Both the position numbers and the translations under genes were made by a program. The notes under the pieces were generated by a model, which did not search any database, had not been told where the DNA came from, and worked only from the letters and a program-made list of their open reading frames with translations. This document shows positions 3,610 to 42,140 of a stretch of 64,000 nucleotides of DNA, in pieces. Source of the DNA: a virus; the IMG/VR virus record IMGVR_UViG_3300042563_000635, positions 1 through 64,000 of that record. The stretch is one strand, 5' to 3'. Positions within the stretch are counted from its first letter, which is position 1, and every line of letters starts with the position of its first letter.

Positions 3610-3635
3610 GTTGATCCTTTAGTGTTTATGTATCT

Positions 3636-3664: not shown

Positions 3665-3665
3665 A

Positions 3666-4099: not shown

Positions 4100-4112
4100 A
4101 ACTATCCTTAAT

Positions 4113-4145
4113 AAAAAAGGGTGAGCATATTGCTACACTCACCCT
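4113..4145 (-). terminator. Intrinsic terminator after the MoxR ATPase gene
   Basis: On the minus strand an 8-bp stem (AGGGTGAG with CTCACCCT) and a 12-nt loop are followed by a run of six T. It lies 20 to 50 bp past the ATPase stop and separates that transcript from the next genes. Confidence 0.85.
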
Positions 4146-4164
4146 GTAAAGCTCAGTAACTGAA

Positions 4165-8867: not shown

Positions 8868-8896
8868 AGTATATCACCTTTTTGTATTTATGTCAA
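8868..8896 (-). promoter_or_regulatory. Sigma70-type promoter for membrane protein, lipoprotein and tmRNA
   Basis: Minus strand: TTGACA, 17 bp, TATACT. The TGA of the -35 box is at the same time the stop codon of the upstream GT-like gene. No other promoter is evident before the tmRNA, so the three genes probably share this one. Confidence 0.8.
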
Positions 8897-9936
8897 ATTT
8901 CAAAACCCTTGTGCATTTCCAAATTCTCGTAATCACTGATAAGCTGATGATCCAAAACGTTTCCCGTATCTTTATACCAATTGATTGTTTCTATTGCTAG
9001 TTCAGGATAGGTAGACATGTCATATGGTATTGCTTTTGCATGTTTTTTATTGAACTCTAGTTTGTGAGCAATTTTTAGTTGCAATGTGTAAAGTTCTTGT
9101 TTAGGTATTTGCACAAGTCTTGTGAAATTTTCTAACAACATCTCATACCTTTTTTCTTCATCAGGTTCATCATCAAATGAATAGTCAAATATTTCTTCAA
9201 ACAACTCAAATCCTAAACTCTTTAAAAATTTGTGGTAATGCATTTGACTTGCTACCAAAAAAGGTTTACCTAACAGTAACGGTATTGCAGTTTTTTCACT
9301 TAGAATAATAGTGTCAGCCGAACTTTCACTTATTAGTTGTGCAAAAGATTCATAGTACTGTTCAGTTATCCTGTACTGATTTTTATCCTCTGGAAACTCA
9401 GATTCTAAAAGTAATGGTTTGGCATCAAAATAGCGCCAAGTATACATTTCAGGAACAGGCAATTGGTGTAATGAGACGGCTCCATAGTCTAATAGTTTAT
9501 TCTTAGCCAACAAATCTATTAAGAGGCATCGATGATTGTGAGGTCTATTGTTCATTGAGATGTAATGATATTTGTACTCTACTTTATCATATGAGCCTAT
9601 AGATAAAATTTTTCTGTTATTAATGTTAAACAATGCTCCTAGTGTTTTCCCTATCCAGTATGTACTCCACCAGGAAATCACAGTATTTTTAATTGCTACA
9701 GGATAGCATAATTCTGCCGACCCGGTAATTATGTATATAAGTTTATTATTTTCTTCACAGAAAGATTGCAGTTTTTCAAATAAAACCGGGTCCCCTTGCA
9801 CATGCCATGCCCATTCATTTTGGCAAAACAAGATTATCTTTTCGTAATCTCCTGTTATTGCTTTATTATAAAACTTATCAAAATTAAGTCCATCCCACTG
9901 ATTGTGACCGATGTACTTGGAAATATCACCACTCAT
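8893..9936 (-). CDS. GT-B-like protein of the T/SEK(T) family, 347 aa
   Basis: The start at 9936 is preferred over 9963 because it aligns with the sister gene just upstream: KYIGHNQWDG here, KYIAHNQWSG there. Both share IIxFCQNEWxW near residue 40, NRPxxHRC near 140, and a C-terminal module ILSEKTAIPLLLGKPFLVAS then a YHKFLKSLGFELFEEIFDYSFD block. The EK-containing motif followed by a small hydrophobic strand resembles the nucleotide-sugar site of GT-B glycosyltransferases such as GT10, but family membership is my inference. The gene overlaps its neighbour's stop by 11 bp and is the last gene of the long operon. Confidence 0.75.
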   Translation of the reverse strand: MSGDISKYIGHNQWDGLNFDKFYNKAITGDYEKIILFCQNEWAWHVQGDPVLFEKLQSFCEENNKLIYIITGSAELCYPVAIKNTVISWWSTYWIGKTLGALFNINNRKILSIGSYDKVEYKYHYISMNNRPHNHRCLLIDLLAKNKLLDYGAVSLHQLPVPEMYTWRYFDAKPLLLESEFPEDKNQYRITEQYYESFAQLISESSADTIILSEKTAIPLLLGKPFLVASQMHYHKFLKSLGFELFEEIFDYSFDDEPDEEKRYEMLLENFTRLVQIPKQELYTLQLKIAHKLEFNKKHAKAIPYDMSTYPELAIETINWYKDTGNVLDHQLISDYENLEMHKGFEI

Positions 9937-10984
9937 AATATTGCAACATTTCCTCTTCGGCATTTAGTGAACAAAGTAAATGATCTACTTCTTCACCAGT
10001 ATCACTATAGTGTTGTAGTATTTCTTTTACTAGACTCGGCTTGATTGTAATGTCATATACAATCTCTCTTACTCTGTTTTTATTGTGCAATAATTTATCG
10101 GCCAATCGATTTGTTATAGCAGGTAATTCACTCAACGGTATATCACATATGTTCTTGTAATTGTCAATTAACATTTCGTACCTGACGTTTTCAGCTACAA
10201 CATCATCAAAAGAGTAATTAAAAATTTCATCATATAACACAAACCCTAAATCAACCAACATTTTGTGATAACCCTGTCTTGATGCAACTAAAAAAGGTAC
10301 GCCGGCGCACAATGGCATGATTGTTTTTTCACTTATAAAATAGGATCTATCTGTAGTCTCACTAACCAATTGACAAAATGAATTTTTATGAATATCAGTA
10401 ACTGCGAACATTTGTGAATGAGCATTGGTTGCAAACTTCTCATGATCCACAGTCATTGGAGTAAAATTAAAATACTGCCATGGATAAATTTTCCAACCAT
10501 CTTGTGTGTGTCCTGAATATACCTCTGATCCGTGTATAGAGACAGCACCTTTCTTTAAAATGTCATGCTTTGCTAATTGGTCTATTACTTTACATCTGTG
10601 TGACTTTGGTCTGTGATTAAAGTTAAAGTAATGATAAGTGTATTCTCTATGTTTTGTAGGATCAATAAAAATGTTAGAACCGTTTGTTCTAATGGTATTG
10701 GTGTACGTTCTACCAAACCATGCAGTAGGCCAATAAGTTACAATAGTATTATCAAGATGTACTGGAAAATCTTTTTCGGCTGCCCCTACGATAACGTGTA
10801 TGGGTTTACCTATACTTTTACAGTAATCTTGTAGCAACCTCCAATGTTCAGGTTCGTGACTGAACCATTCCCATTCGTTTTGACAAAAAATAATTATCTT
10901 ATCGCAATCTTCATTTCGAACTCTATTGTAAAATTCTATGAACTTATCATTGCCTGACCATTGATTGTGTGCAATATATTTCAT
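9926..10984 (-). CDS. GT-B-like protein of the T/SEK(T) family, 352 aa
   Basis: A close relative of the next gene downstream, clearly a tandem duplicate: same order of KYIAHNQWSG, IIIFCQNEWEWF, NHRPKSHRC, YFISEKTIMPLCAGVPFLVAS and a final GFVLYDEIFNYSFDD. The module at residues 220 to 275 is the part shared by nine domains in this window. Probable role: glycosyltransferase acting on a phage or host surface glycan (inference). No signal peptide, so it is cytoplasmic. The start overlaps the stop of the giant repeat gene as ATGA. Confidence 0.78.
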   Translation of the reverse strand: MKYIAHNQWSGNDKFIEFYNRVRNEDCDKIIIFCQNEWEWFSHEPEHWRLLQDYCKSIGKPIHVIVGAAEKDFPVHLDNTIVTYWPTAWFGRTYTNTIRTNGSNIFIDPTKHREYTYHYFNFNHRPKSHRCKVIDQLAKHDILKKGAVSIHGSEVYSGHTQDGWKIYPWQYFNFTPMTVDHEKFATNAHSQMFAVTDIHKNSFCQLVSETTDRSYFISEKTIMPLCAGVPFLVASRQGYHKMLVDLGFVLYDEIFNYSFDDVVAENVRYEMLIDNYKNICDIPLSELPAITNRLADKLLHNKNRVREIVYDITIKPSLVKEILQHYSDTGEEVDHLLCSLNAEEEMLQYYEW

Positions 10985-13900
10985 TTGTTAAATCTTTCTC
11001 TTAACCACGCCCATTCATAACTTAATTTTAGTTTATCAATCTTACCGTCTACTTCATGGTAGTATTCAATGCCGGCATGGGCACCGTCTAATGAGTATTG
11101 TGCAAAATTGCCATCTGCTTTAGTCATCCAAGCTTCTAAACGTTTCAAGCTAATGTCTGAGCCATCTTTCTTTAACTTAATAACTTCACGGAATGCAGTA
11201 CGCCATGTAGACCATTCATCGGTGTTATACGTTGCGATTCCTGACAACAACTCAACCGTTTCATGTGGACTATCAAGTGTGAAGTCAAGTCCGTATCCTG
11301 TATTGTCTAGCGTCATTTGTTTGTTGTATGCAATCATACCTTGATGTCCATAAATCAAATTGTTCACTGGATTCTTAGCTAAGAACATATAGTGCTTAGG
11401 AATCTGTAATCTATCTGGTTGCCAGTTAAAGTCAAATTTAGTATTGACTTTTAGTTTAGCAAATACAGTAAACATCCATGGTGTATTACTTGCTTCTGCT
11501 GCCGCATGATAGGCTTGAACACGACCGTTAACACCATCGACTCGAACTATTCTGTTTTCAAGACCTTTAGTTGCTTTTAACAAATGCTCATAGTTTTCTT
11601 CTGCACATGATTCACCATTGCTCAAGTACACAATGTCTAAAGGATTACTTCTTGCTAATCGTGACGATGTTTTAATGTATGGGTAGTCATATAGTTGTGT
11701 CTCAACATATTGTTTTGCTTCTTTAGGAACAACGATGCGTGTACCACCGGTGCTAGTGATAAGAATGTTTTTAGACTCGACATTCCATAAACTCATTGGT
11801 TCTTCCTCGACAGCAACTATGTCTTTGTTATCCTCAGTTACAAACACAGCATAAGGGAAGTCAAAGTCTTGCATTACGCTTGCAACATGAGTATCAAACT
11901 CAGTTACGATAGTAGGAGGTGCTAAACGTTTTGTACGTTGATGTTGGTTAAAGTTTATCTTGTCATAATCTTTCAATGACTCCATGTTATCGATCAACTC
12001 ACGCAACTTGTTAACATTCACTAAGAATGTATCACCAAATTTTTGCCTGTCGCTAGGGAATACATGCAACTGTTCACGTGCAAATGGATCACAAATATAA
12101 GTAAAGTCAAAACCTTCATAGTCACAGACTGTACTTGCTATCCAAATATATTGTTCTTTCTTTTCAGGAAGTTTTGACAATATATTTTTGAAAGTAGTAA
12201 AGTAATCAGTGTCGTACGGAACAACATTTGTGCTAGGCAAGTTATCTGAGTTACCGTGATCTATGTAATAAACATCATACAACACGTTAGTAGCTTTAGC
12301 AATTCTATCCTTAACAAAATTAAGATTGCTCAAGTGTTCAATAATCTTGATGTATTTTGTATCAGCAGAAAATGTGTCACGGTTAACTATAAAGGTTGTA
12401 CCCCAGTGTGACCACTGGGTCCCAAATACATGAACCATTTTCATCTGCCATGGATTAGGATAGTAGTGGAAGTCAAAATCACTGTAATCTAATTCGCTGT
12501 TTAATATCCAGCATAGTTCTGTACTGCTTCGATTAATACAACGATTGATGGTATCAACCCAACTGTTTAGATATCGGGTCTTTTGTATATTACCAAACTT
12601 ACTCTTTAATAATGCAAAACGTTCAGATGATTCACTGTTACCACGGTCAACAAAGAACATGTCTGGTTTTACGAACAAGGTAGATAGATATTCTTCGCTC
12701 AACTTAATGTTTTCGACAAACTTAAAATCTTTCTTTCCTGACATGTACGACTTTGCGTTAACAAAGTATGTTTGTGTTAGAGGTGAGTCGGGTGAACCAA
12801 ATACGTGAACGTAATCAGATTCCCAAGAGATTGTTACAATCTCAGGTCTCCATGCGAAATCAAATAACTTATAATCAATGCTTGGATTCAATGCCCAGAA
12901 TATTTCATTAGGATGTTTATTTACCAAATCTTCTAGTGTTGTTTCAATGTAATACTGACCAATGGTAACATCTTCAACTAAAGGAGCATCATCTTCTATT
13001 GGTTTATATATTCGTTGTTTGAACACAACTTCGCTGTTGTTGATTGTTGGCACATATCTAGGGCCATCTTTATCATCAGTCACTGTACCAAACTGATAAA
13101 TGTACGGTGGTGCTAACTCATCTGGGTGCCAACTAAAGTCGAAGGTAGATGTATCTACTCCTGCAGGAATAACCCAATTAGTCTTTACTTGCTTTCGTTT
13201 AGCAACTGATTCAGTGATATACTTAATATCTGTTGCCTCAGGTACTACGTAACGAGGGCCACCTGTCTTTTGCCATTGAGTACCAAACTGATAGATATAA
13301 GGAGGGTCTTTTGGATGAGGTAACCAACTGAAGTCAAAACTCTCTGCAATTACATCCTTAGGTATTTCCCAATTCTTTTTGTTGTTATTCAACGTGGCGA
13401 CTACATCATGCACGTATTTTGTTTGCACTGCACCTGGCACTATATATTCAACTGTAGGCATTACTTCAGCAGAATATTGGTTGTTACCGAATACATAAAT
13501 GTATGGCTTGTCATTGTCATCAGGATGCCAAGAATAATCAAACTCTTTTATCTCATGCTCTATCAGCGTATTAAAGTTTTTCTTGTTTGGCAATTGTCTT
13601 GCTTTAACATCAGCACAATACTTTACCGGGGTATCACTAGTAGAGCCTGTAGTAATATACTTAGGTCCACCTGTCTTCTGCCATTGTGTACCGAATTGAT
13701 ACACATATAGTTCTTCAGTTTCGTCAGGATGCCAACTGAAGTCAAACTGTGTGCTATCAATAGTTGCAGGAACGATCCATTGCTTTTTAGAAGCAATTGA
13801 TTTTGCGGTAGATCCTTCAACATATTTGATTTCAGTAGCACCTTCTACTGAATACTTAGGTCCACCTGTCTTTTGCCATTGAGTACCGAATTGATAGATA

Positions 13901-16900
13901 TAAGGAGGATCATTTGGATTAGGTTTCCAACTAAAGTCAAACTCACTTACATCAATGTTAGTAGGTATCTCCCAATCTTTAAGATCAGTTGCAAGAACGG
14001 CTTTAACGTCATTGACATACTTTACTTTTTCTGCATAAGGACTTGAACGATATTCAATCGTAGGCATGACTTCGGCAGAATATTGAGTGTTACCAAACAC
14101 ATATATAAACTCTCCGTCAGTTTCATCCGGGTGCCATGACCAATCAAATGATGCAACTGATAAGTTGTTTAATACTGTAAATTTGTCCTTAGTAGGCAAT
14201 TTCTTTGCAGTAAGAATACGTGTATCAATGTACTTGACTGGTGCACTTCTTTTCGCACCCGGGGTCACGTACCGAGGTCCACCTGTCTTTTGCCATTGAG
14301 TACCAAACTGATATATGTATGGATCGTCTTCTGCGTAAGGATGCCATGAGAAATCAAATTCAATTTCTGAAATGTCAGTAGGTATTTCCCAATTATCTTT
14401 ATTGGGTAATGCTTTTGCACTTGGAGAATCCATGTACTTAGTTGCAATAGCTCCATTCATCTTATAGATAGGACCACCGCTCAATGCCCACTGAGTTGCA
14501 AAGTGATAATTATAAGGAGGACTTGTTGCATCTGGGTGCCAGCTAAAGTCAAAATCAGTTACGTCAATGTTAGCAGGCAACGTCCAATTGTCATGATTAG
14601 CTAAAGCTGTTACATGTTGGGTAGTAACATATTTGACTTCTGTTGCATCAGGTACTACATAACGAGGGCCACCTGTCTTTTGCCATTGAGTGCCAAACTC
14701 ATATATGAAAGCAGGATCTTTAGGATTAGGCTTCCAACTGAAATCAAAATCGGTTATGTCTACATTGTTGGGTATATTCCAACAAGTCATGTCAACATCT
14801 AATGTAGCGACAATATCATTGATGTATTTGATTTGTTTTGCTCCTGGCACTACATATTCAACTGTGGGCATTATTTCGGCCGGGTGCTGTGTATTACCAA
14901 ATACATAAATGTATGGTTCATCAGTGTCATCTGGATGCCATGCCCAATCAAAATCCTTGATCTTGTAGTTGTTTAAAATTGCAAAGTTCTTTTTGTTAGG
15001 TAATCTTTTAGATTTTAGAATACGTGTATCAATATACTTGATAGGACTCGAAGGAATTACCCCAGGGGTAACATACCGAGGTCCACCTGTCTTCTGCCAT
15101 TGAGTGCCGAACTGATAGACATATGGTTGATCTTCTACGTACGGGTGCCATGAAAAGTCAAAATCACTAATATCAACATAGTCAGGTACTTCCCAATTAT
15201 CTTTATTAGGCAATGCAACTGCGCTTGGTTCTTCTAAGTATTTTGTTTCGGTAGCGCCAGATACAGTATATATAGGTCCGCCAGTCAATGCCCACTGAGT
15301 AGCAAAATGATAGATGTATGGAGGACTAGTATCGTCTGGGTGCCAACTAAAATCAAATCCAGTAGTATCAACATACGTAGGAACTGTCCAGTTATTTTTA
15401 GTAGGCAATGCAGTTACTTGATGTGTTGTCACGTACTTAACTTCGTCAGCACCGGGTACTACATAACGAGGGCCACCTGTCTTTTGCCATTGCGTACCAA
15501 ATTGATATATAAACGCTGGATCTTTGGGATTAGGTTTCCAACTGAAATCAAATGCAGAAGTATCAGTGTCTGACGGTACTTCCCAGTTAGTCATATCAAT
15601 GTCTAACACCGCAATAACATCATTGATGTATTTGATTTGCTTTGCGCCTGTAACTACATATTCAACTGTAGGCATTATTTCGGCCGGATGTTGTGTATTA
15701 CCAAATACATAAATGTATGGCTCATCAGTTTCGTCCGGGTGCCATGACCAATCAAATTCTTTGATTTTGTAGTTGTTTAAAATTGCAAAGTTTTTCTTAC
15801 TTACTTTTCTAGTTGCCTTAAGAATACGTGTGTCAATATACTTTACGGGACTTGAAGGAATAACACCCGGTGTAATATAACGAGGTCCACCTGTCTTTTG
15901 CCACTGAGTACCAAACTGGTATATATATGGTTGATCTTCTACATATGGATGCCAAGAAAAATCAAATGCATCAACGTCTATGTTGTCAGGTACTTCCCAA
16001 TTATCTTTGTTTACTAGAGCTACCGCATTTGGTTCTTCTAAGTATTTTGTTTCAGTAGCTCCGGGGACAGTATACACTGGTCCACCAGTTAACGCCCACT
16101 GAGTAGCAAAATGATAGATGTATGGAGGACTAGTATCGTCTGGATGCCAGCTAAAATCAAAGTTACTAACGTCAACTGTTTTAGGAAGCTCCCAGTTACT
16201 TGCAGTTGAGTTAGGCAAAATCCTAACTTTTTGAAAGTCTATATACTTTATGTCTACTGCGTCAGGCATAGTGTAAGTAGGCCCACCTGTCTTTTGCCAC
16301 TGTGTTCCGAATTGCCAAATTAAATTTGGTTCTAATGGGTCAGGTCTCCAACTAAAATCGAACCCAGTAACATCTACATTGCTTGGTATGATCCATCGAT
16401 CCCACTCAGGAGTTACATTAACCAAATCATCCATATATTTGATTTCTGTTGCGTCAGATACATGATATTCTACGGTAGGCTTATATTTATTACTAACATA
16501 CGCATTACCCCAACGATATATGTAGGGAGGGTCTTTGGGATTAGGTTTCCAACTAAAATCAAATGCTGATTCGTCTATAGGACTAGAAATTACCCAATTG
16601 GTTTTATCTTCTCCTAAAGTTGCAATCACATCATATACATATTTTATTTGTTTAGCCCCAGGAACAACATATTCAATCGTAGGCATTATTTCAGGAGGAT
16701 ACTGATTGTTCCCGAATACGTAAATATATGGTTCATCTGTTTCATCAGGATGCCATGACCAGTCAAACTCTTTGATTTTGTAGTTGTTTAATATAGCAAA
16801 GTTTTTCTTGCTAGGTTTTCTGATAGACCGTATGATACGTGTATCAATATATTTTATAGGACTAGAAGCAATAGTTCCGGGTGTTATATACCGAGGTCCA

Positions 16901-19335
16901 CCTGTCTTTTGATGTTGTGTGCCGAACTGATAGATATATGGTTCATCCTCAACGTACGGATGCCATGAGTAATCAAACAATTCTTTGTCAACTGACTCGG
17001 GAATTTCCCAATTAGTTTTGTCCGGCAGGGCTCTTGCCACAAGGTCTTCGACATACTTAACTTCTGTCGCCCCGGGTACAGTGTATATCGGGCCGCCACT
17101 CAATGCCCACTGAGTGGCAAAATAATATATATAAGGAGGACTTGTATCGTCCGGGTGCCAGCTAAAATCAAAATCAGTTACTTCAATATTAGTAGGTACG
17201 GTCCAGTGATCACGTGAAACTAAAGCCTTTACTTTATGTGTGGTCACATACTTAACTTCGTCAGCGTCAGGTACTACGTAACGAGGTCCGCCGGTCTTTT
17301 GCCATTGTGTACCGAACTGATATATAAACGCCGGATCTTTAGGATTAGGTTTCCAAGTGAAGTCAAAGTCAGTTGTATCTATATCCGAAGGTACTTCCCA
17401 GTTAGTCATATCAACATCCAATGTTGCTACTACATTACTAACATACTTTACCTGAGTTGCGCCTGCGACAGCGTATTCAATCGTGGGCATAACTTCTGCC
17501 GGATGTTGTGTATTACCAAATACATAAATGTATGGTTCATCGGTGTCATCTGGGTGCCACGACCAATCGAAATTTTTGATCTTGTAGTTGTTCAATATCG
17601 CAAAGTTATTTTTGTTTGGCTTTCGAACAGAGCTAATGATACGAGTATCAACATATTTTATTGGACTCGAAGGAATTACCCCAGGGGTAACATACCGAGG
17701 GCCACCTGTCTTTTGATGTTGTGTGCCGAACTGATAGACATATGGTTGATCTTCTACATATGGATGCCACGAGAAATCAAATTGTGTGCTATCAATATAA
17801 CTAGGAACTTCCCAATTTTCTTTACTTGGTAATGCTATAGCAGATGGATGTTCAACATACTTAACTTCTGTTGCCCCTTCCATGTTATATATAGGTCCGC
17901 CTGTTAATGCCCATTGAGTAGCAAAGTGATATGTATATGGTGGGCTTGTGCTATCGGGATGCCAGCTAAAATCAAATCCGGTTACATCACAGTTAGTAGG
18001 GATAGACCAATTAGCTGTAGTAGATAATGCTTTTACTTTTTGAAATTCAACATACTTAACTTCTGTTGCTCCCTCTACTATATAGCGAGGTCCACCTGTC
18101 TTTTGCCATTGAGTGCCAAACTCGTATATGTATGCAGGGTCTGCTGGACTAGGTTCCCATGAAAAGTCAAATCCAGTTGTATCAACATTGTCCGGTACTA
18201 TCCAATTGTCCATTGATGGCTTACGTTTACTACGTTGTTCCATGTATCTGTATTCAGTAGCACCATCAACTACATATTGTATCGATACTTTATCTTCAGG
18301 TTTGTTCCATTGATTTCCCCATGCATAGATGTAAGGAGGTGCAGTTGGATCAGGTACCCAACTATAATCTATACCATCTGCTTTTTCTAGGTGCTCAAAC
18401 TTCTCTGGATGAGGACTCAACTTAGCTTTCATATCGTACAGATATTTTCTTTCAGTAGCCAAAGGCATACGATACTCTACGGTAGGCATTACCCCACCTT
18501 CGTATTGCTCATTACCGAATACATAGATATAATCAGGTTCACGCGGGTCAGGTCTCCAGCAGAAATCAAATGATGTTTTGTCTATGTCATGTAGAATATC
18601 CCAGCGGTCCCATTCAGGTAACACTGGAACTAATTCATTCATATACTTCTTTTCAGTTGCATTCGGCACATGATATTCTAATGTTGATTTTAGCTTACCA
18701 TCTACATATTTGTTACCCCATACATATATGAATGGAGGATCCATTGGATCAGGTCTCCAACTCATATCCCATCGAATCTGATCTACTTTTTGTACTTCAA
18801 CAATGCAATCCCAATTAGGTAACAATTCCACAATGGTGTTCATGTACTTTATATCAGTAGCACCTTCTACCGTATATTCTAAACAAGTGTTTAGTTCTGC
18901 AGGCGCATACTTAGAACCCCACTTGTAAACAAACGGAGGGTCAGTTGGATCTGGGTGCCAACTAAAGTCCCACTTTTCTATATTGATGTTTTCTAATATC
19001 TTCCAATTATCAGATACTATATTCTTCCTCTTGAGAGGTTCAACATCGCACCGATACACAATAACATCACTACGCTTCTTTGTACACAGCCAGGTACCGC
19101 TATCTTTCTGGTGCTTACTTGGCCACACATTATTGTGTTCTTCTGCCCAAACATCACCGTCAGATAAAAACTCAAAATCAAAATTCCAATCGAATTTGGT
19201 GTAATCACAGAATTCATTTATAACCCAAAAATGTTCTGTCGTTGCTTTCTTTCTAGCATCTACTAGATTTTTAGCAGGTTGTTCCTTAGGATGAACATTG
19301 GGTTTTTTTCCGTAATAAAAAACATCTCTTAGCAT
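10981..19335 (-). CDS. Giant tandem-repeat protein with glycosyltransferase-like C-terminus, 2784 aa
   Basis: One unbroken 8.4-kb frame. Residues 1-110 hold a divergent first unit (ARKKATTEHFWVINE, then FDWNFDF). From about 110 to 2110 come some 30 units of 60 to 70 residues with the core FDFSWHPD..PPYIYQFGTQWQKTGGPRY..PGATEVKYV, then about three divergent units. The last 220 residues align with the GT-A-like protein encoded at 44776-45729 (RVDGVNG, NNLIYGHQGM, TWRTAFRE), but the DGDN metal site of that protein is replaced by FAKLKVN. The repeat itself resembles the segment after the DxD of that fold. Probably a scaffold or binding protein derived from a glycosyltransferase (inference). Starts directly after the carbamoyltransferase stop. 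Confidence 0.9.
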   Translation of the reverse strand: MLRDVFYYGKKPNVHPKEQPAKNLVDARKKATTEHFWVINEFCDYTKFDWNFDFEFLSDGDVWAEEHNNVWPSKHQKDSGTWLCTKKRSDVIVYRCDVEPLKRKNIVSDNWKILENINIEKWDFSWHPDPTDPPFVYKWGSKYAPAELNTCLEYTVEGATDIKYMNTIVELLPNWDCIVEVQKVDQIRWDMSWRPDPMDPPFIYVWGNKYVDGKLKSTLEYHVPNATEKKYMNELVPVLPEWDRWDILHDIDKTSFDFCWRPDPREPDYIYVFGNEQYEGGVMPTVEYRMPLATERKYLYDMKAKLSPHPEKFEHLEKADGIDYSWVPDPTAPPYIYAWGNQWNKPEDKVSIQYVVDGATEYRYMEQRSKRKPSMDNWIVPDNVDTTGFDFSWEPSPADPAYIYEFGTQWQKTGGPRYIVEGATEVKYVEFQKVKALSTTANWSIPTNCDVTGFDFSWHPDSTSPPYTYHFATQWALTGGPIYNMEGATEVKYVEHPSAIALPSKENWEVPSYIDSTQFDFSWHPYVEDQPYVYQFGTQHQKTGGPRYVTPGVIPSSPIKYVDTRIISSVRKPNKNNFAILNNYKIKNFDWSWHPDDTDEPYIYVFGNTQHPAEVMPTIEYAVAGATQVKYVSNVVATLDVDMTNWEVPSDIDTTDFDFTWKPNPKDPAFIYQFGTQWQKTGGPRYVVPDADEVKYVTTHKVKALVSRDHWTVPTNIEVTDFDFSWHPDDTSPPYIYYFATQWALSGGPIYTVPGATEVKYVEDLVARALPDKTNWEIPESVDKELFDYSWHPYVEDEPYIYQFGTQHQKTGGPRYITPGTIASSPIKYIDTRIIRSIRKPSKKNFAILNNYKIKEFDWSWHPDETDEPYIYVFGNNQYPPEIMPTIEYVVPGAKQIKYVYDVIATLGEDKTNWVISSPIDESAFDFSWKPNPKDPPYIYRWGNAYVSNKYKPTVEYHVSDATEIKYMDDLVNVTPEWDRWIIPSNVDVTGFDFSWRPDPLEPNLIWQFGTQWQKTGGPTYTMPDAVDIKYIDFQKVRILPNSTASNWELPKTVDVSNFDFSWHPDDTSPPYIYHFATQWALTGGPVYTVPGATETKYLEEPNAVALVNKDNWEVPDNIDVDAFDFSWHPYVEDQPYIYQFGTQWQKTGGPRYITPGVIPSSPVKYIDTRILKATRKVSKKNFAILNNYKIKEFDWSWHPDETDEPYIYVFGNTQHPAEIMPTVEYVVTGAKQIKYINDVIAVLDIDMTNWEVPSDTDTSAFDFSWKPNPKDPAFIYQFGTQWQKTGGPRYVVPGADEVKYVTTHQVTALPTKNNWTVPTYVDTTGFDFSWHPDDTSPPYIYHFATQWALTGGPIYTVSGATETKYLEEPSAVALPNKDNWEVPDYVDISDFDFSWHPYVEDQPYVYQFGTQWQKTGGPRYVTPGVIPSSPIKYIDTRILKSKRLPNKKNFAILNNYKIKDFDWAWHPDDTDEPYIYVFGNTQHPAEIMPTVEYVVPGAKQIKYINDIVATLDVDMTCWNIPNNVDITDFDFSWKPNPKDPAFIYEFGTQWQKTGGPRYVVPDATEVKYVTTQHVTALANHDNWTLPANIDVTDFDFSWHPDATSPPYNYHFATQWALSGGPIYKMNGAIATKYMDSPSAKALPNKDNWEIPTDISEIEFDFSWHPYAEDDPYIYQFGTQWQKTGGPRYVTPGAKRSAPVKYIDTRILTAKKLPTKDKFTVLNNLSVASFDWSWHPDETDGEFIYVFGNTQYSAEVMPTIEYRSSPYAEKVKYVNDVKAVLATDLKDWEIPTNIDVSEFDFSWKPNPNDPPYIYQFGTQWQKTGGPKYSVEGATEIKYVEGSTAKSIASKKQWIVPATIDSTQFDFSWHPDETEELYVYQFGTQWQKTGGPKYITTGSTSDTPVKYCADVKARQLPNKKNFNTLIEHEIKEFDYSWHPDDNDKPYIYVFGNNQYSAEVMPTVEYIVPGAVQTKYVHDVVATLNNNKKNWEIPKDVIAESFDFSWLPHPKDPPYIYQFGTQWQKTGGPRYVVPEATDIKYITESVAKRKQVKTNWVIPAGVDTSTFDFSWHPDELAPPYIYQFGTVTDDKDGPRYVPTINNSEVVFKQRIYKPIEDDAPLVEDVTIGQYYIETTLEDLVNKHPNEIFWALNPSIDYKLFDFAWRPEIVTISWESDYVHVFGSPDSPLTQTYFVNAKSYMSGKKDFKFVENIKLSEEYLSTLFVKPDMFFVDRGNSESSERFALLKSKFGNIQKTRYLNSWVDTINRCINRSSTELCWILNSELDYSDFDFHYYPNPWQMKMVHVFGTQWSHWGTTFIVNRDTFSADTKYIKIIEHLSNLNFVKDRIAKATNVLYDVYYIDHGNSDNLPSTNVVPYDTDYFTTFKNILSKLPEKKEQYIWIASTVCDYEGFDFTYICDPFAREQLHVFPSDRQKFGDTFLVNVNKLRELIDNMESLKDYDKINFNQHQRTKRLAPPTIVTEFDTHVASVMQDFDFPYAVFVTEDNKDIVAVEEEPMSLWNVESKNILITSTGGTRIVVPKEAKQYVETQLYDYPYIKTSSRLARSNPLDIVYLSNGESCAEENYEHLLKATKGLENRIVRVDGVNGRVQAYHAAAEASNTPWMFTVFAKLKVNTKFDFNWQPDRLQIPKHYMFLAKNPVNNLIYGHQGMIAYNKQMTLDNTGYGLDFTLDSPHETVELLSGIATYNTDEWSTWRTAFREVIKLKKDGSDISLKRLEAWMTKADGNFAQYSLDGAHAGIEYYHEVDGKIDKLKLSYEWAWLRERFNK
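13020..19010 (-). repeat. About 30 coding tandem repeats of ~200 bp, arranged as ~805-bp four-unit blocks
   Basis: Inside the giant gene. Four unit types recur in order: A (WKPNPKDPAFIYQFGTQWQ), B (HPDDTSPPYIYHFATQWAL), C (HPYVEDQPYIYQFGTQ, longer PG..PSSPIKYIDTRI linker) and D (HPDETDEPYIYVFGNTQ, then EIMPTVEY). The A units near 17335, 15525 and 14720 and the D units near 17540, 15730 and 14920 are nearly identical in DNA, a sign of recent unequal exchange. Confidence 0.92.
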
Positions 19336-20814
19336 TTATGATATCACTTTAACATTGTACAATTTTTCGAATCTATCAGCATCAAGTCTGTCATTTACCA
19401 TTGGCTCTCCTCTGATATTAAGAGAGGTGTTTAACAGTATAGGGCATCCAGTCAATACATACCATTTCTCTAGGAGTTCTCTGACTCCGCTTCCATCTTT
19501 TGGCACAGTCTGGACACGACTAGTCCCGTCATGATGAACGATAGCAGGAAATAACTGAGGATGCCTGCAACGAGCGATGACTTGCATATACCTACTGTCA
19601 CTCCAATTGCGAGGCATGTCAAAATAATTGTGAACATGCTCCTCCAAAATAATGGGCGCAAATGGTCTGAATTTTTGTCTGCGTTTAATTTCATTTACAG
19701 TATCCTTTATTGTATCACCTCTGGGGTCTGCTAGCAATGACCTATTACCCAATGCACGTGGACCAAACTCTGCACGACCTGAGGCTACACCTACTATTTT
19801 AGTCTTAACTAGTTCATCAATGATACGATTACTGGGATAATTGCCTGGAATGTCGTGCCCTAAGAAAGCATCAATCCAGTTCAACTTTTTGCCATATCCT
19901 AAAGCGGCGGCACCTAAACTAGAGCCACAGTCTCCGGGATTAGGTACTATCCACATGTCATTGAAGTAATCACCTAAGTTTCTATTTGCTAAACAGTTAA
20001 GTGCGACTCCTCCACCATATACCAAGTTACGACTCTTGCCCAACATACGAGCTTTTGCCATCACTGCGTTGATTAGATATTCTGCTAATGCTTGAGCACT
20101 GGCAGCAACGTCCATTTCATTGGCACCTTCTAAAAAGTTTTCAGGGACACCAATGTGTAAATTTTCTTTGAAATCTATTTTGGTGCTATTTTCTAACAAC
20201 TTAGATTCAATGGTATTAAAATGTATAGGTTTACCGTACGCAGCCATACCCATTAGAATGTATTCTTCATCTAATGGACGTAGACCAACGTGTTGAGTCA
20301 TTGCACTATAATATAAACCAATGCTGTGTGGATATTTTTTAGTCCAAAGTTTCTTGTATTGGGCATAGCCATTTTCATCGTACCAAGCATCCCATATAGA
20401 GATACAATCTATCTCACCGATAGCATCAATTACTACAACAGTGGCATCATTGTATGGACTTGTTTGAAAGCCAGCGGCGGCATGACTCAAATGATGATTG
20501 TGTGTAACGACTTTTGGGTTGTTAAACACATTGAGAATAGATTTACCTATACGCATTTTAGCAGTGCGTAAATCTAATTTTTGTCCTGCTCTTAATTGAC
20601 GTAATGCAGTCATCCAAGGACGTTCATAATAATGAACTTCGCATTCACCAGTTAGAGTTTTGGCTGCGTCTATCGCTAGTTCAGAACATAGTTCAGCGTC
20701 ATGCTTTTTCTTGCTATAACGCTCACTATGACCCGCAAATAGAATGTTTCCATTCGAATCCACAACAGAGATACCGGCGTCATGGAAGCCGTTGCTTATT
20801 CCTACGTAGTTCAT
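19336..20814 (-). CDS. NodU/CmcH-family carbamoyltransferase
   Basis: Transfers a carbamoyl group from carbamoyl phosphate, through carbamoyl-AMP, to a hydroxyl of a sugar or similar molecule. The 492 residues include the N-terminal NHHLSHAA metal-binding motif at 106-113, GMAAYGKP near 198, GGGVALNC near 280, and the C-terminal block EFGPRALGNRSLLADPR, FRPFAP and LNTSLNIRGEPMV. Length is a little under the usual 530 to 570, but all main motifs are present. It lies in the long surface-chemistry operon, so the target is probably a glycan made there. An upstream 32-aa gene and a TATAAATA box precede it. Confidence 0.93.
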   Translation of the reverse strand: MNYVGISNGFHDAGISVVDSNGNILFAGHSERYSKKKHDAELCSELAIDAAKTLTGECEVHYYERPWMTALRQLRAGQKLDLRTAKMRIGKSILNVFNNPKVVTHNHHLSHAAAGFQTSPYNDATVVVIDAIGEIDCISIWDAWYDENGYAQYKKLWTKKYPHSIGLYYSAMTQHVGLRPLDEEYILMGMAAYGKPIHFNTIESKLLENSTKIDFKENLHIGVPENFLEGANEMDVAASAQALAEYLINAVMAKARMLGKSRNLVYGGGVALNCLANRNLGDYFNDMWIVPNPGDCGSSLGAAALGYGKKLNWIDAFLGHDIPGNYPSNRIIDELVKTKIVGVASGRAEFGPRALGNRSLLADPRGDTIKDTVNEIKRRQKFRPFAPIILEEHVHNYFDMPRNWSDSRYMQVIARCRHPQLFPAIVHHDGTSRVQTVPKDGSGVRELLEKWYVLTGCPILLNTSLNIRGEPMVNDRLDADRFEKLYNVKVIS

Positions 20815-20952: not shown

Positions 20953-22737
20953 TCAATTCCGTATAGGGCATTTTTCTAATAACAGTTTACGATTGTGTTC
21001 TACAATAGGTAACATTTGTGTATACATGTCTTTCAGTTTTGAAATGGGCATGTTGTTGATAGAATCAATCAGTTTGAATATAGCAAATAACCTAGACTCA
21101 TGATCTTCCATTGCATCATATGACTCATCCCAAAACTCACTAAAAGTTTCAAAGCCTTGTTCTTTTAAATAATGCAATGTGTGTGGTGGCCCAACCATAA
21201 TAAAAGGCTTTTTATAGAACATAGCTCTATATACTTTTTCGCTGTAGTTACTTGTAGGTTGTGCAAACCGAGATTCATTGACTACATCTAAGAATACATC
21301 AGCGTATGTTGATTTTAATCTGTCTTGGTTATCACCAAACTTTTCTTTTTTATGATCATAGATAACACCTGTCGGGAACATCTTTTTAAAGTATTTGTCA
21401 TTGATAAGAGTGTGTTCTTTCACATTCAAATCGATGTTCCACGGTGAACGTAGATTTAATTGGTTAAACCCCTTTATCATCTTTTGAAAAACTTCTGGAT
21501 TTTTTCTCAACCAATCGTGTATACTATACCAAGGTTCTACACTGACTATACTCATGTCTGCTTTAAAATACCATGTTAAGTAACTAGTATCGCTGTAGCT
21601 AGCCAAATACGCTGCCACTAATTGTCTATGCGGGGCATATCTCCAGTTCATTGATATAAACCGTTTGCTAAAATTTCCCATGAATTCATCTTCACTAGAT
21701 AAATTCTCAAATTCATTAGTGTCAAAATACTTTACAAACAAATCATCAGCTTCCAATTTCATTTTGGATAGGTAATGAGTGTAAAACTTTTCTATGTTAT
21801 AGTCACAGGTTTTCACTGTGACATTTGTTAATTTGTTTCTGTCAATGTATTCTACAATACTGTCTAATTCTACTGCCCGCATGTCATCTGTTTTCTGCAC
21901 ATGATCATAGTGGAACTCAGAATAGAAAATTAATGAATGCTTAGATCCATGCGGAGGATACATTTGTTGGTCATTCTTGCGATACGAACACAACGGCTCA
22001 TACAGATAGATTTCTAATCCATTATCATTTAAATAGGCTGTATCTTCTGCGCTGTGATTGATAGTTTCTAAATCTGGTAACTCTCTGTTGTACATATAAA
22101 TGTAGTACGGAGAATTTTTATTCATGCGCTTTTTCATTTCAGTCATTTCAGGACTGAACAATGATTCTTTCTTTGTTACTAACCCAGGAACATTATACCA
22201 ATGCACATGCTTATATACATCTTCTGAATTAATTCTAGTGCCTGTAATTTGTAGGGTGTATCTATCTTCAATCCCTATATTACTGGCTGCATGCGGAACG
22301 TCACTGTCCCACATAAAATAATCGCCGGCTACCCAATTAACTATACCTACTCCATCTACTTCTAAGTAATGGCCAGGCTTCCAATCATCTAACATTACTA
22401 AAATTCTAACTGCATTTTCATACTCTACATTGAACAATCTCATATAGGTTTGAAAATGGTCTACGTGCGTTGGCATAATTTCTAATTGTTGCATTTTGTA
22501 GAAATTATACGTCATGTTTTTAAAGTCGAATATGTTGCCAAACCTATTAACCCATTCAGGCATAGGATTACGACTATCATACATAGACCCTGAAAAACTT
22601 TTTACATAGTCATAGCCTTTAGCTTTCCATTCTTCAAGTTCAGAATCCATTAAAGGTTGTCTAACATAATCAAACTTCTTTACATCATCTGTATTCCAGA
22701 ATCTACTTATGTGTCCTCTTGTCCATTTATTTGCCAT
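20953..22737 (-). CDS. Fusion of 2OG-Fe(II) oxygenase-like and GT-B-like domains, 594 aa
   Basis: The N-terminal 170 residues look like a 2-oxoglutarate/Fe(II) dioxygenase: HVD at 91-93, a second histidine in DVPHAASN near 149, and an arginine in RYTLQITG at 159, the expected order for the iron triad and 2OG contact. The C-terminal part carries YSEKVYRAMFYKKPFIMVG and a GFETFSEFWDESYD block, the family module seen eight more times here. A hydroxylase joined to a glycosyltransferase would make and then glycosylate a hydroxyl group (inference). AAAGGAATCAC before the ATG is a good ribosome-binding site. The start overlaps the amidinotransferase end by 11 bp. Confidence 0.8.
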   Translation of the reverse strand: MANKWTRGHISRFWNTDDVKKFDYVRQPLMDSELEEWKAKGYDYVKSFSGSMYDSRNPMPEWVNRFGNIFDFKNMTYNFYKMQQLEIMPTHVDHFQTYMRLFNVEYENAVRILVMLDDWKPGHYLEVDGVGIVNWVAGDYFMWDSDVPHAASNIGIEDRYTLQITGTRINSEDVYKHVHWYNVPGLVTKKESLFSPEMTEMKKRMNKNSPYYIYMYNRELPDLETINHSAEDTAYLNDNGLEIYLYEPLCSYRKNDQQMYPPHGSKHSLIFYSEFHYDHVQKTDDMRAVELDSIVEYIDRNKLTNVTVKTCDYNIEKFYTHYLSKMKLEADDLFVKYFDTNEFENLSSEDEFMGNFSKRFISMNWRYAPHRQLVAAYLASYSDTSYLTWYFKADMSIVSVEPWYSIHDWLRKNPEVFQKMIKGFNQLNLRSPWNIDLNVKEHTLINDKYFKKMFPTGVIYDHKKEKFGDNQDRLKSTYADVFLDVVNESRFAQPTSNYSEKVYRAMFYKKPFIMVGPPHTLHYLKEQGFETFSEFWDESYDAMEDHESRLFAIFKLIDSINNMPISKLKDMYTQMLPIVEHNRKLLLEKCPIRN

Positions 22738-23713
22738 TGTGATTCCTTTCTATGTCTAAAGTTACACAATGGAAGCAGCCTCCCAATGTACGTGCGTGAC
22801 GCATAGGCATCATCTGTACATCAATCTTATGCTTTTCTAATTCTATTCGTAACGGTTCTTGGTGTGCTTCTACTACAGCAAGGTTAGGATTAACGCTGAA
22901 TAAGTTCACACTAACCCAGGTACTTGCATTACAGTAGCCAGGGTAATGACCTATATCTACTGGTTCGGGTGCCCAAATAACATCCCACGATTGTAGTGGC
23001 TTAGGTAGTTGTTCTACTGACTTGATACGTGCAGGATTCAATAACATCAATCCCTCACGTAGTAATGCAATCGTGCTGTCAAGGTGCATATAACTGTACA
23101 CGCCTTCGATAGTATGTACTTTCTTATCTGGGTGTGCAAGCTGTAATAGTTCAGCACCGCTTTTGTTTCCGCTATTACTTACAAGATAAAACAAATCATC
23201 GTTGCTTCTAAGTATGTTTGCCGCATCAAATGCTGGTTCGGTTTCAGTCAATGCTAGAATGTCCGGGTTACCTAAACACTCGCTATTGTATAAGCTACTA
23301 TCTCTAGGAAACCTAGGTACTAGTACATCGCTATAGTTTTGTAACACTGGCAATAGTGCTTTATACTCGTCTTGTCTACTACGCAAAGGCATGGGCGTTG
23401 CTATAACTTTATCATCGTGTATCAATACACTATCACGTGGGCAATAGTTATAATAGCTAGGCACTACAGACCTATCTGGTCTGTGTACTCTAACATTACA
23501 TGACTCTAAGAATTTGCTGAATAAATCTAAATCTTCATTAGCCTCATTGATAACTTGTTCTGGGTATAGGCCCGCGTTTGGAATATTATATATTTTCTTT
23601 ACATCAGCATAGTTTACCATTCGTAAACTAGGATCTACAATAGGAACTCTAGCATCGTCGGCTACTCCTACTATAACTGATAGCAAAGGATCCCATTCGT
23701 TCTTACTTAACAT
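22727..23713 (-). CDS. Amidinotransferase (glycine/inosamine amidinotransferase type)
   Basis: Moves an amidino group, usually from arginine, to an amine. The 328 residues show the family pattern: CPRD near 91-94, EPAFDAAN near 159 with Asp163, YMHLDST with His210 and Asp212, and GGCFHC with the likely catalytic Cys316 close to the end. It lies between a DegT-type aminotransferase gene and a hydroxylase fusion. The neighbouring enzyme could supply the amine to be amidinated, much as in aminocyclitol pathways (inference). Overlaps both neighbours by 11 bp. Confidence 0.9.
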   Translation of the reverse strand: MLSKNEWDPLLSVIVGVADDARVPIVDPSLRMVNYADVKKIYNIPNAGLYPEQVINEANEDLDLFSKFLESCNVRVHRPDRSVVPSYYNYCPRDSVLIHDDKVIATPMPLRSRQDEYKALLPVLQNYSDVLVPRFPRDSSLYNSECLGNPDILALTETEPAFDAANILRSNDDLFYLVSNSGNKSGAELLQLAHPDKKVHTIEGVYSYMHLDSTIALLREGLMLLNPARIKSVEQLPKPLQSWDVIWAPEPVDIGHYPGYCNASTWVSVNLFSVNPNLAVVEAHQEPLRIELEKHKIDVQMMPMRHARTLGGCFHCVTLDIERNHNGK

Positions 23714-24293
23714 TAAATACTTTCATTTTTGATATATCAGGATAATCTGTGTGTGACCATTGTTTTGGGTCAGTGTCTTTAATCTGTTCGAATCTATTCA
23801 TACCTAATACTGCTGTCTCCGGGGTCATATAGTAATGGTATCCCAACATATCTATATCTTGTTCAGCCCAGAGAGTATCAGGCACACGACCATCATAACT
23901 CATTTTCTTTAGTGCAACATATTCATAGTCATGTTCTACTAAGATCATGCCGCCACGTCCAACATTCAAATGCTTTCGGTACTGAAAGCTTAGACACATA
24001 AACGTATTAGGTATGTATCCATTCTTCTTCCAATAGACAGCGGCATCGATGATGTTAGTGTTGCCTACATAGTAATAATCTTTCCAGTATTGTTGATTGA
24101 ACTGCCAATCTAAGTTCAACTTCTCAAACGTCATAGGAACGCTTAGATATGTATTAGTCGGACATGTTACGTTATCAAACTTAGTATAGCGTAATGCTAA
24201 CTCTATACCGTGTGTACAACAATCTACTGCAACTGCATACGGTGCGTTGTAGTAGTCAGCAATCAATCTTTCAAATTGCTGAACTTCTTTCAT
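23703..24293 (-). CDS. Half-length DegT/DnrJ/EryC1-type aminotransferase
   Basis: Sugar aminotransferases of this family are PLP enzymes of about 370 residues; this one has 196. Kept are the start of the fold (YNAPYAVAVDCCTHGIELAL, PTNTYLSVPMTFEKL) and the PLP-lysine segment SFQYRKHLNVGRGGMI, with Lys107 as the likely Schiff-base residue. The C-terminal small domain is mostly missing. Frame and ribosome coupling (ATGA overlap with the radical SAM gene) are intact, so it is a compact version rather than a visible frameshift. It may work only with a partner, or may have lost activity. Confidence 0.8.
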   Translation of the reverse strand: MKEVQQFERLIADYYNAPYAVAVDCCTHGIELALRYTKFDNVTCPTNTYLSVPMTFEKLNLDWQFNQQYWKDYYYVGNTNIIDAAVYWKKNGYIPNTFMCLSFQYRKHLNVGRGGMILVEHDYEYVALKKMSYDGRVPDTLWAEQDIDMLGYHYYMTPETAVLGMNRFEQIKDTDPKQWSHTDYPDISKMKVFNVK

Positions 24294-26554
24294 TCTATAT
24301 CTTTCTTACGTTTGATTGAATCTATACTAATGGTTTGTGGTTGCTTTGCAAAATCTAAAGCAAACATTGCTTCTTTTTCCGGAATAACTTCACGTGAAGT
24401 ATTAGATACAGCAACTTCAAAGTCTTTGTAATTGCCCCAGTTACCGTAGCCAATGTAATGATAGTCAAACGTAAAGTCAACGTTCTTGTTAAGTTCTGTT
24501 TCTTCATCTAACAAATCACTAAAGTCTTGACCATCACGACCTTCAGCGTCACTCCATGTAGGCTTTGCAAGTTTACGGGCTCGTAGTGCAGTGTTGCTCA
24601 TCATACGTGAATAATCTTGTGCATAGAACGGACCTTTACGACCTAGGGGCGGACGCTCACGGTCATCAAACGGATTATCAATCTGCTCAAACTTCATATC
24701 AAAGTCTGCTTCCCACTTACCGCTGTCACTAATCTTAAACTTGTACACGGCATTAAACATCCCGGGGCCAAATTGTTGACCAAATTCTTTTAAGTCAATC
24801 TCAGGATTGTATCGTATCTCTGCTTCGTATCCACCACGACATTTCCATAACATGCGCAAGAAGGGCCACATTTCATTTACTAATGCATCAGCAAAAGGAT
24901 TAATGTTTGGCTTAATAATGTTGTAATCAAACTTCTCATACTCAATCTCTCTAGCCATATCAGTATGATTGAGTTTGATTTTGTAGTGTTCTTTCTCTAA
25001 TGCATGACGCACCGGATAGCTGATAGGTACATCGGTTACTCCGCGAAAGAAGTCAGCAAACATGTGCCATGTTTTGACACGAATCATCAAGTGTGTGCCA
25101 CCGAACGTAAAGTCATTGCGTATCCAGTGACCTTGATACTTGTGCCAACTGATATTAAACTTGTGAGGGTGCTGCCCTACAATAGTCTCAGGACCCATGC
25201 CATAGCCAACACCTAAACCTGCATTGTTAATGTTGTTGTTACGCATACGCCAGAAGAATGTCATAGTGTCTGAATAGTCTTGATAGTCTTCTGTCGGGAA
25301 GCCTACGATCCAGTTAGTAGCTGCCCAGATGCCTGTCTTTTTACAGTCGATAAAGTTCTGTTCCATCTCAGCGATAGTAACACCTTTAGCCATATCATCA
25401 AGTACTTTCTGACTTCCGGATTCAACACCAAAGTTAAACATGATAGCGCCGCCGGCTGCTAAGTCTTGCAAGTACTCTAAGTCCATACGACCATCGCAAC
25501 GTGCGTATCCTGTCCACTTGACTTTCAAGTCTTTCTCTTTAAGAGCAAGGGCAAAGGCTCGTAGTTCTTTAGGGTTACCATTGATTAACGAATCGATGAA
25601 CCAGATAATATCTGTGCCTTTGTTGTAGTACAGCCATTCAACTTCTGTAATCAAGTCAACACTTTGACGCTGACGATACTTCCAAAAGTGTGTTTCTTCA
25701 CAGAATGTACATTTAGCAGTGCAACCTCTACTGATTTCACTATTAACGCCGTTAGGTAATTCGTACTGTGAAAAGTCAATGCTCTCATAGTCGGGCATAG
25801 GCAAGCCGTTGATGTTGATACGTTGATCTTCGGGCTGTGTAAGATAGCGAGGATACTCTACTTCTATCTTGTCTTCTATTTCGTCAAGCATTACTAATAG
25901 ATTCTGCTCACCTTCACCTACCACAACATAGTCATAGTACGGATGTGTTGCAAACCAACTCTTGTGTACGTTAGGTCCACCGACTGCAATCTTAATGTGA
26001 GGTGCTCTACGCTTGATTTCACGACACATCCACTTCGTAGGTTCTTCGCTAATGTAATAAACACTGAAGCCAACTACATCCGGGTTCATTTCAATGATCT
26101 TATCTACTGCTGGTTCTAGTATCTCAGGGCCCAACAATGGATGAATATCATTCATGTAAGTATCGCCCAGCCAATGCCATGAACTAGACGGATCCCATAG
26201 TCTAAATGGAATACGCTGTTTAGGCCACCAGTCTTTCTTGAATGCGTTATACGCTTTAACATTCAAATCAATAATGTGTGTTTCATAGCCCGAACTCTTG
26301 GCAACACCGCTTAATCGTGCAAGACTAAACGGAGGCATATAAGGGCTCCATTCGGGGCACAGTACAAGAACTAACTTAGTGTTTCTTGTCTTGTAGTCAA
26401 CATATACAGGGGTTAAGTTCTTTTGAACTGTTGCTTTGGCATAAGGAGCAATTGCTTCCATCATACTACGATGGCGCGCATCAGCTATATCCTCGGTGGG
26501 ACGCTCCTTAGGCTTTAATTCGTCAACAGCCAATGATCTTAAGGTAAAATCCAA
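24290..26554 (-). CDS. B12-binding-like radical SAM protein, 754 aa
   Basis: A TTG start is used: AGGAG lies 6 to 8 bases upstream and no ATG is available before residue 31. Residues 60-230 form a B12-binding-like Rossmann domain (LCPEWSPYMPPFSLARL, VVGFSVYYIS, IAVGGPNVH, VVGEGE). The radical SAM core follows with CTAKCTFC at about 277-284, the cluster ligands for cleaving S-adenosylmethionine. A C-terminal part of about 250 residues is family-specific. Such enzymes do radical methylations or rearrangements. It heads the run of aminotransferase, amidinotransferase, hydroxylase and carbamoyltransferase genes. The substrate is unknown. Confidence 0.88.
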   Translation of the reverse strand: MDFTLRSLAVDELKPKERPTEDIADARHRSMMEAIAPYAKATVQKNLTPVYVDYKTRNTKLVLVLCPEWSPYMPPFSLARLSGVAKSSGYETHIIDLNVKAYNAFKKDWWPKQRIPFRLWDPSSSWHWLGDTYMNDIHPLLGPEILEPAVDKIIEMNPDVVGFSVYYISEEPTKWMCREIKRRAPHIKIAVGGPNVHKSWFATHPYYDYVVVGEGEQNLLVMLDEIEDKIEVEYPRYLTQPEDQRININGLPMPDYESIDFSQYELPNGVNSEISRGCTAKCTFCEETHFWKYRQRQSVDLITEVEWLYYNKGTDIIWFIDSLINGNPKELRAFALALKEKDLKVKWTGYARCDGRMDLEYLQDLAAGGAIMFNFGVESGSQKVLDDMAKGVTIAEMEQNFIDCKKTGIWAATNWIVGFPTEDYQDYSDTMTFFWRMRNNNINNAGLGVGYGMGPETIVGQHPHKFNISWHKYQGHWIRNDFTFGGTHLMIRVKTWHMFADFFRGVTDVPISYPVRHALEKEHYKIKLNHTDMAREIEYEKFDYNIIKPNINPFADALVNEMWPFLRMLWKCRGGYEAEIRYNPEIDLKEFGQQFGPGMFNAVYKFKISDSGKWEADFDMKFEQIDNPFDDRERPPLGRKGPFYAQDYSRMMSNTALRARKLAKPTWSDAEGRDGQDFSDLLDEETELNKNVDFTFDYHYIGYGNWGNYKDFEVAVSNTSREVIPEKEAMFALDFAKQPQTISIDSIKRKKDIE

Positions 26555-26574
26555 AATGTGCTCCTATTTTCTAT

Positions 26575-26603
26575 ATTATACTACTCTGTTACAAGTAGTA
26601 CAA
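26575..26603 (-). promoter_or_regulatory. Possible sigma70 promoter with an inverted repeat in the spacer
   Basis: Minus strand: TTGTAC, 17 bp, TATAAT, upstream of the TTG-started radical SAM gene. TACTACT and AGTAGTA, 7-bp arms 8 bp apart, occupy most of the spacer and the edges of both boxes, as an operator would. Confidence 0.45.
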
Positions 26604-26614
26604 CACATATGGAC

Positions 26615-26629
26615 ATTATACAGTATAAT
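26615..26629. promoter_or_regulatory. 15-bp palindrome over the end of the fusion gene
   Basis: ATTATAC-A-GTATAAT is a perfect inverted repeat covering the stop codon of the dehydrogenase fusion, just upstream of the possible promoter. It could bind a dimeric regulator, or it may be chance in AT-rich sequence. Confidence 0.3.
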
Positions 26630-29780: not shown

Positions 29781-29802
29781 TTAATACCTCATGTATACCT
29801 AA

Positions 29803-29810
29803 TATTTATT
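29803..29810 (-). promoter_or_regulatory. Possible T4-like late promoter box before the fusion gene
   Basis: Reads AATAAATA on the minus strand, inside the string CAAATAAATATTA that also lies upstream of the porin. It is flanked by ACCTAA and TTAGGT, which can pair. Confidence 0.35.
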
Positions 29811-29836
29811 TGTTTAGGTACAGTCATTTAAATTTA

Positions 29837-36502: not shown

Positions 36503-36503
36503 G

Positions 36504-38560: not shown

Positions 38561-38561
38561 A

Positions 38562-42137: not shown

Positions 42138-42140
42138 TGA

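Follow-up and report, generated by a model that had tools for sequence, protein, structure and literature searches.

A giant tandem-repeat protein related to GT-A glycosyltransferases beside a variable sugar island in uncultured large phages

Pelagimyophages carry a host recognition cluster between VrlC and gp14 that holds tail fibres together with glycosyltransferases and radical SAM cassettes, and in both pelagimyophages and cyanomyophages this cluster is hypervariable and adjoins the baseplate/VrlC genes (PMC7029224). Carbohydrate-binding module arrays and cellulosomal scaffoldins are repeated, non-catalytic modules that serve enzymes, and GT2-type glycosyltransferases (K4CP, WrtF, PcManGT, SunS) have a GT-A fold. 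Here, we describe a phage locus with a comparable hypervariable island that adjoins baseplate genes, and a giant protein, P0001, of a kind that the host recognition cluster paper, as consulted, does not mention, being made of glycosyltransferase (GT)-derived repeats. P0001 shares its C-terminal fold, and the element order of its long modules, with the GT2-type enzymes, but its DxD is lost, its modules are truncated and up to 34 minimal repeats stand in tandem. The analogy to binding-module arrays and scaffoldins is a possible one; in contrast to these, no carbohydrate-binding module (CBM) or cohesin family was found in P0001, and its origin appears to be a GT rather than a lectin-like fold.

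The window analyzed is a stretch of 64,000 nucleotides that forms part of a 98,897-base virus record. An initial annotation had reported a giant protein of some 35 joined copies at 10981-19335, and the minus strand does hold a single 2,784-aa frame there, in which 34 FDF-type motifs (30 short units, 3 long modules with FDF at aa 2158, 2287 and 2409, and 1 C-terminal domain with FDF at aa 2634) and an N-terminal cap make 35 modules. P0001, its parts and its single-domain relative P0002 are as follows.

10981..19335, minus strand: P0001, giant GT-A-derived repeat protein, 2,784 aa, open frame without internal stop
19000..19335, minus strand: N-terminal cap module, aa 1-112, a truncated GT-A-like start plus one FDF unit
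13051..19011, minus strand: 30 short repeats of 65-70 aa each, aa 109-2095, subtypes in ordered blocks (ACBD, period 4)
14749..15591, minus strand: four-repeat block, aa 1249-1529, input for structure prediction
12739..13050, minus strand: long module 1, aa 2096-2199, a bridge between short repeats and GT-like modules whose profile matches both sides
12316..12738, minus strand: long module 2, aa 2200-2340, beta-alpha-beta-alpha-beta start with an ExD-like NSELD at the metal position
11866..12315, minus strand: long module 3, aa 2341-2490, paralogue of module 2 (profile E 1e-14, 125 columns)
10984..11733, minus strand: C-terminal GT-A-like domain, aa 2535-2784, with a conserved AKL replacing DxD and WRTAFRE kept
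44776..45729, minus strand: P0002, a single-domain relative that has invariant IDGDN (DxD)

Orthologues of the same architecture occur in dozens of viral contigs and, because these contigs are independent and their arrays identical in architecture, the P0001 array is not an assembly artefact. The short repeats share the core W-x-[VI]-P...FDFSWxP...YIYxFGTQW...GGPxY...KY, with W18 (100%), P20 (99%), D15 (98%), Y43 (97%) and Y29 (96%) conserved in a sample of relatives. The N-terminal cap, which is kept in relatives, matches the third long module (profile E 3.7e-6, score above all 200 shuffles).

Homology between the C-terminal domain and the protein at 44776-45729, as claimed in the initial annotation, was recovered both by translated search (C-terminal 250 aa against P0002, E 1.7e-7, 34% over ~173 aa) and by profile-profile comparison (hhalign E 3.3e-13, 187 columns), with a score of 89.6 against a maximum of 26.3 in 200 column shuffles. 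The two share the motifs WR(T/A)(A/G)FRE and N-P/A-[VI]-N-x-L-x-Y-G. P0002-type phage GTs, present in the same genomes and homologous to P0001 over ~187 columns, differ from it in being single domains with an intact IDGDN and without repeats. At the DxD position, IDGDN is invariant in P0002, whereas a conserved AKL, with K and L invariant, stands there in the P0001 C-terminal domain; the metal position reads NSELD in module 2 (nearly invariant) and SSICD in module 3, and canonical DxD is absent from every P0001 module.

Profile searches tied the short repeat to long module 1 at E 1.4e-12, to long module 2 at E 1.5e-9 over 55 columns and to the C-terminal domain at E 1.3e-5. The last of these had an hhalign score of 35, where the null reached at most 23, and column shuffles never equalled the scores against module 2 or the C-terminal domain. 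Long module 1 scored 32.8 against the C-terminal domain, a value reached by none of 200 shuffles. The repeats align from the DxD strand to just beyond the metal site of the C-terminal domain, in agreement with the earlier suggestion that their core resembles the part of the GT fold just after that site; these above-shuffle homologies and the GT-A matches of the C-terminal model (below) support an origin from a piece of a GT. A profile built from the C-terminal domain by itself was searched against contigs of relatives, where it matched long module 2 (E 1.9e-8 and 2.2e-7, among others) and, in four relatives, single short segments (E 3-6e-4), all in the same register. By positions computed from frame lengths, the four segments fall within the short-repeat array, one of them in a 759-aa frame without a C-terminal domain. 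With window-centred profiles, long module 2 matched the C-terminal domain weakly and a reversed control scored higher; module 3 compared directly with the C-terminal domain scored no better than shuffles. Direct profile comparison gave no signal between P0002 and either the short repeats or module 2, and the link of repeats and module 2 to P0002 runs only via the C-terminal domain.

A 528-aa protein from a related contig (L232:2564-4150, plus strand), with two intact tandem P0002-type domains carrying DGDA, bridges the P0001 modules. It matches the C-terminal profile (6e-42), P0002 (6e-72) and the long module 2 profile (2.4e-8, NSELD aligned to DGDA), and has a sub-threshold Pfam match to Glyco_tranf_2_3 (E 7e-4) in register up to DxD; three near-identical contigs encode it, well away from the sugar island. 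No curated GT family model in Pfam matched above cut-off: P0001 gave only Glyco_trans_1_3 (E 0.36), and GT2 models reached only E 0.011-0.036, below cut-off, in single relatives. A single-sequence similarity of long module 3 to a radical SAM C-terminus (E 3e-4) was gone with profiles and was rejected.

Structure prediction (AlphaFold2) of aa 1987-2784 with 46 orthologues gave a model of pLDDT 86.2 and pTM 0.62, and all 50 best matches of this model in the PDB (Foldseek) were GT-A enzymes; this C-terminal third, long modules included, is assigned a GT-A fold. The best match was the two-domain chondroitin polymerase K4CP (2z86, E 1.2e-5, 626 columns), followed by WrtF, PcManGT, SunS and ppGalNAc transferases; the multi-domain nature of the model keeps global TM-scores low. 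The second half of the GT-A fold is missing from the long modules. Four short repeats, modeled with 100 aligned blocks, gave pLDDT 94.8 and pTM 0.79 and a nearly all-beta structure with ~3 strands per repeat. The repeat did not prove to be an unrelated known domain: Foldseek against the PDB returned nothing better than E = 4, GT-A folds included, and no Pfam family was consistent, with CBM or lectin families showing no consistent match over the 100 repeat blocks (H_lectin in 4 members only, best E 0.052). The order of elements in the repeat (strand, FDF loop, YIYxFG strand, GPRYVV strand, loop, VKYV strand) recurs, by comparison of element order only, in long module 2 and in the C-terminal domain, where the second loop is a helix. 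In BFVD, only two proteins match the repeat fold, A0A6J5L5L5 (E 1.4e-26, 37% identity) and A0A6J5LK21 (E 3.1e-17, 24% identity), both from uncultured Caudovirales phage, shorter than P0001, uncharacterised and unannotated.

Scans of IMG/VR, of which the best 80 matches each were looked at, returned 476 matches for the repeats, 493 for the C-terminal domain and 386 for P0002, which puts the P0001 family at some 480-490 matches, on contigs of up to 525 kb. With the queries used, no member was found in 50,697 GenBank records of cultured phages or in plasmids, nor, with the patterns used, in 84,980 bacterial and archaeal genomes; it falls in no named family and has no solved structure. Seven Aeromonas phage matches to part of the C-terminal third (E 0.4-0.5) were judged to be chance, and Moraphage (PMC12619734), considered as a lineage match, was set aside, with no mention of carbamoyl or radical SAM functions.

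The number of short repeats in intact proteins ranges from 3 to 34 at the threshold applied. The subtype string of P0001 is E I J L F, ACBD ACBD K ACBD ACBD ACBU, AVDAG; arrays of other phages are runs of one subtype or of two alternating subtypes (period 1 or 2). Compared with the closest relatives, repeats near both array ends are orthologous and the middle repeats are scrambled, as expected from unequal recombination. Repeats and C-terminus are under purifying selection (dN/dS ~0.02-0.17, approximate because synonymous changes are close to saturation). Longer arrays go with longer islands (Spearman 0.68, n=56); the correlation is partly phylogenetic and, once tree-corrected, only suggestive (r 0.28, p 0.09; sign test 26/37, p 0.02). 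In contig L117, an intact P0001 has downstream of it a separate 72-aa frame (13500-13716, plus strand) that matches the end of the C-terminal domain (E 4e-22) and is a duplicated remnant of it.

In the region around P0001, P0003 and the next frame (both matching phrog_10938) precede the genes for baseplate wedge and hub; further downstream lie a conserved block, closed by P0002 and a radical SAM protein, a variable island, a carbamoyltransferase and then P0001.

51018..63992, continuing in the next frame at L159:2-6700: P0003 and its neighbor, the frames of a split phrog_10938 protein
43367..44782, minus strand: radical SAM protein directly after P0002, at the island start
20953..43370, minus strand: variable sugar/radical-SAM island between P0002 and P0001 (DegT, UDP-glucose dehydrogenase, epimerase, B12/radical SAM, SPASM)
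19336..20814, minus strand: carbamoyltransferase (Pfam 5.7e-48), directly upstream of P0001, 0 nt apart
8893..10984, minus strand: two tandem paralogues of 352 and 356 aa, 41% identical, directly after P0001

Across relatives, the island between P0002 and P0001 measures ~1.3 to 27 kb. Most contigs have both P0001 and P0002: P0001 was present in 19 of 20 contigs found by P0002 (the exception lies at a contig end), and P0002 in 11 of 13 found by P0001 (both exceptions look truncated). In 82 of 99 relatives, the gene immediately upstream of P0001 encodes the carbamoyltransferase; those without it there include L074, L135, L146, L151, L156, L194 and L207, and among proteins of known length, kinship ignored, P0001 measures at most 1,477 aa without the upstream carbamoyltransferase and up to 3,084 aa with it.

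Several other genes of the region are unusual. The giant virion structural protein (phrog_10938) is split into adjacent frames of 4,324 and 2,233 aa. A single 1,054-aa frame (26616-29780, minus strand) joins the N-terminal part of UDP-glucose dehydrogenase, a region of weak radical SAM similarity and a small-methyltransferase domain, and two radical SAM proteins (40866-43370, minus strand) have their domains in an order opposite to the usual one, with SPASM ahead of radical SAM. The 196-aa DegT/DnrJ aminotransferase (23703-24293, minus strand), whose best stretch covers only family positions 24-79 of 360, is kept in relatives and is possibly a split or trimmed enzyme. The tandem paralogues at 8893-10984 had no family match; their SEKTxxPLxxGxPFLVAS motif is one that we take to be typical of GT-B-type transferases, and they are possibly GT-B-like. 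Near the island end lies a Gram-negative porin gene (Porin_4, E 1.7e-41; 7013-7915, minus strand), with relatives in a few other contigs. A MoxR-like AAA ATPase beside a DUF2201 metallopeptidase/VWA protein (2326-5265, minus strand) forms a pair that is conserved downstream of P0001 in several contigs.

Our preferred, still tentative, reading is that P0001 is a GT-A-derived, mostly non-catalytic scaffold for glycan assembly; that it binds a glycan or acceptor, that it acts as a scaffold and what it targets are what we infer. This role is favored because P0001 has lost the DxD that its single-domain partner P0002 retains, because the segment chosen for repetition surrounds and immediately follows the metal site, and because the pairing with the island is fixed. 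P0001 would have arisen by whole-domain duplication of a phage GT-A glycosyltransferase, followed by loss of the metal site; its modules would next have been trimmed step by step, and a minimal beta subdomain of 65-70 aa, comprising the DxD strand and what comes after it, amplified in tandem. In the infected cell, the repeats of such a mostly non-catalytic scaffold may hold a growing glycan, or an acceptor awaiting glycosylation, and P0002 and the island enzymes would build the glycan by sugar-nucleotide synthesis, radical SAM modification, carbamoylation and transfer. The product may be destined for the host surface, where it would exclude other phages, or for the tail of the phage itself, and the ordered repeat subtypes may read a repeating target. 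The carbohydrate-binding array put forward in the initial annotation is a plausible, if putative, description. A further, rather improbable reading makes P0001 a glycan template or ruler of a new kind, in which ordered subtypes of GT-A-derived binding repeats would correspond to the repeat unit of a polysaccharide encoded by the phage and array length would be set by the pathway; the correlation of array and island length, weak once tree-corrected, is not relied on for it.

That P0001 is instead a virion adhesin or fibre, with its beta repeats forming a long tail arm that binds a host surface glycan and array length tuning reach or avidity, is doubtful but deserves weight. Expandable beta arrays suit fibres, the island starts beside baseplate genes and the giant phrog_10938 virion protein, and the corresponding pelagimyophage island is a host recognition cluster with tail fibres (PMC7029224). 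P0001, however, matched no structural PHROG or Pfam fibre domain in searches of both databases, lies away from the tail genes at the far end of the island, downstream of the carbamoyltransferase, and has an enzyme-like C-terminus. We consider it unlikely that P0001 is an active giant glycosyltransferase, catalysis residing in a metal-independent C-terminal domain (Lys for DxD) or in module 2 (ExD) and the repeats serving as spacer or processivity track. Metal-independent GT-A enzymes exist, the WRTAFRE motif and most of the C-terminal domain are conserved, NSELD is nearly invariant in module 2 and the top structural match, K4CP, is a polymerase with two GT-A domains; yet no P0001 module keeps the canonical DxD, which P0002 of the same genome does, and the long modules miss the second half of the fold.

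The proximity of many copies of one aromatic motif to several radical SAM/SPASM enzymes would also suit a repeated acceptor protein that is itself glycosylated or radical-SAM-modified by island enzymes. P0001 is very improbable as such a substrate: its repeats are predicted with high confidence to be well folded, unlike peptide substrates, and the conserved aromatics may simply form the fold core. Hardly credible by now, and largely refuted, is a repeat that is an unrelated known domain such as PKD with a chance similarity to GT-A. It draws on a weak PDB sequence match (6aem, E 0.014), against which stand the pLDDT 95 repeat model without a PDB fold match, the absence of the PKD family among the Pfam matches listed for 100 members, ~3 strands per repeat rather than the seven of the PKD beta sandwich, and the in-register links of the repeats to the GT; a PKD identity was rejected on fold and Pfam evidence.

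Large uncultured phages, represented by hundreds of metagenomic contigs, thus carry a giant protein of up to ~35 copies of a GT fragment beside a sugar-making island, around which the family pairs with a conserved phage GT, P0002. An enzyme fold appears to have been cut down to a beta module of 65-70 aa and amplified into one of a phage's largest proteins, with intermediates of that trimming preserved within the polypeptide itself. Whether or not the repeats bind glycan or acceptor, a predicted repeat fold without a PDB match has been found. If the repeats of the proposed scaffold bind glycan or acceptor, this would explain how glycan assembly is organized in uncultured large phages and would offer a new repeat scaffold; should P0001 act as template or ruler, the substrate-side subdomain of an enzyme would have been turned into an expandable recognition polymer.
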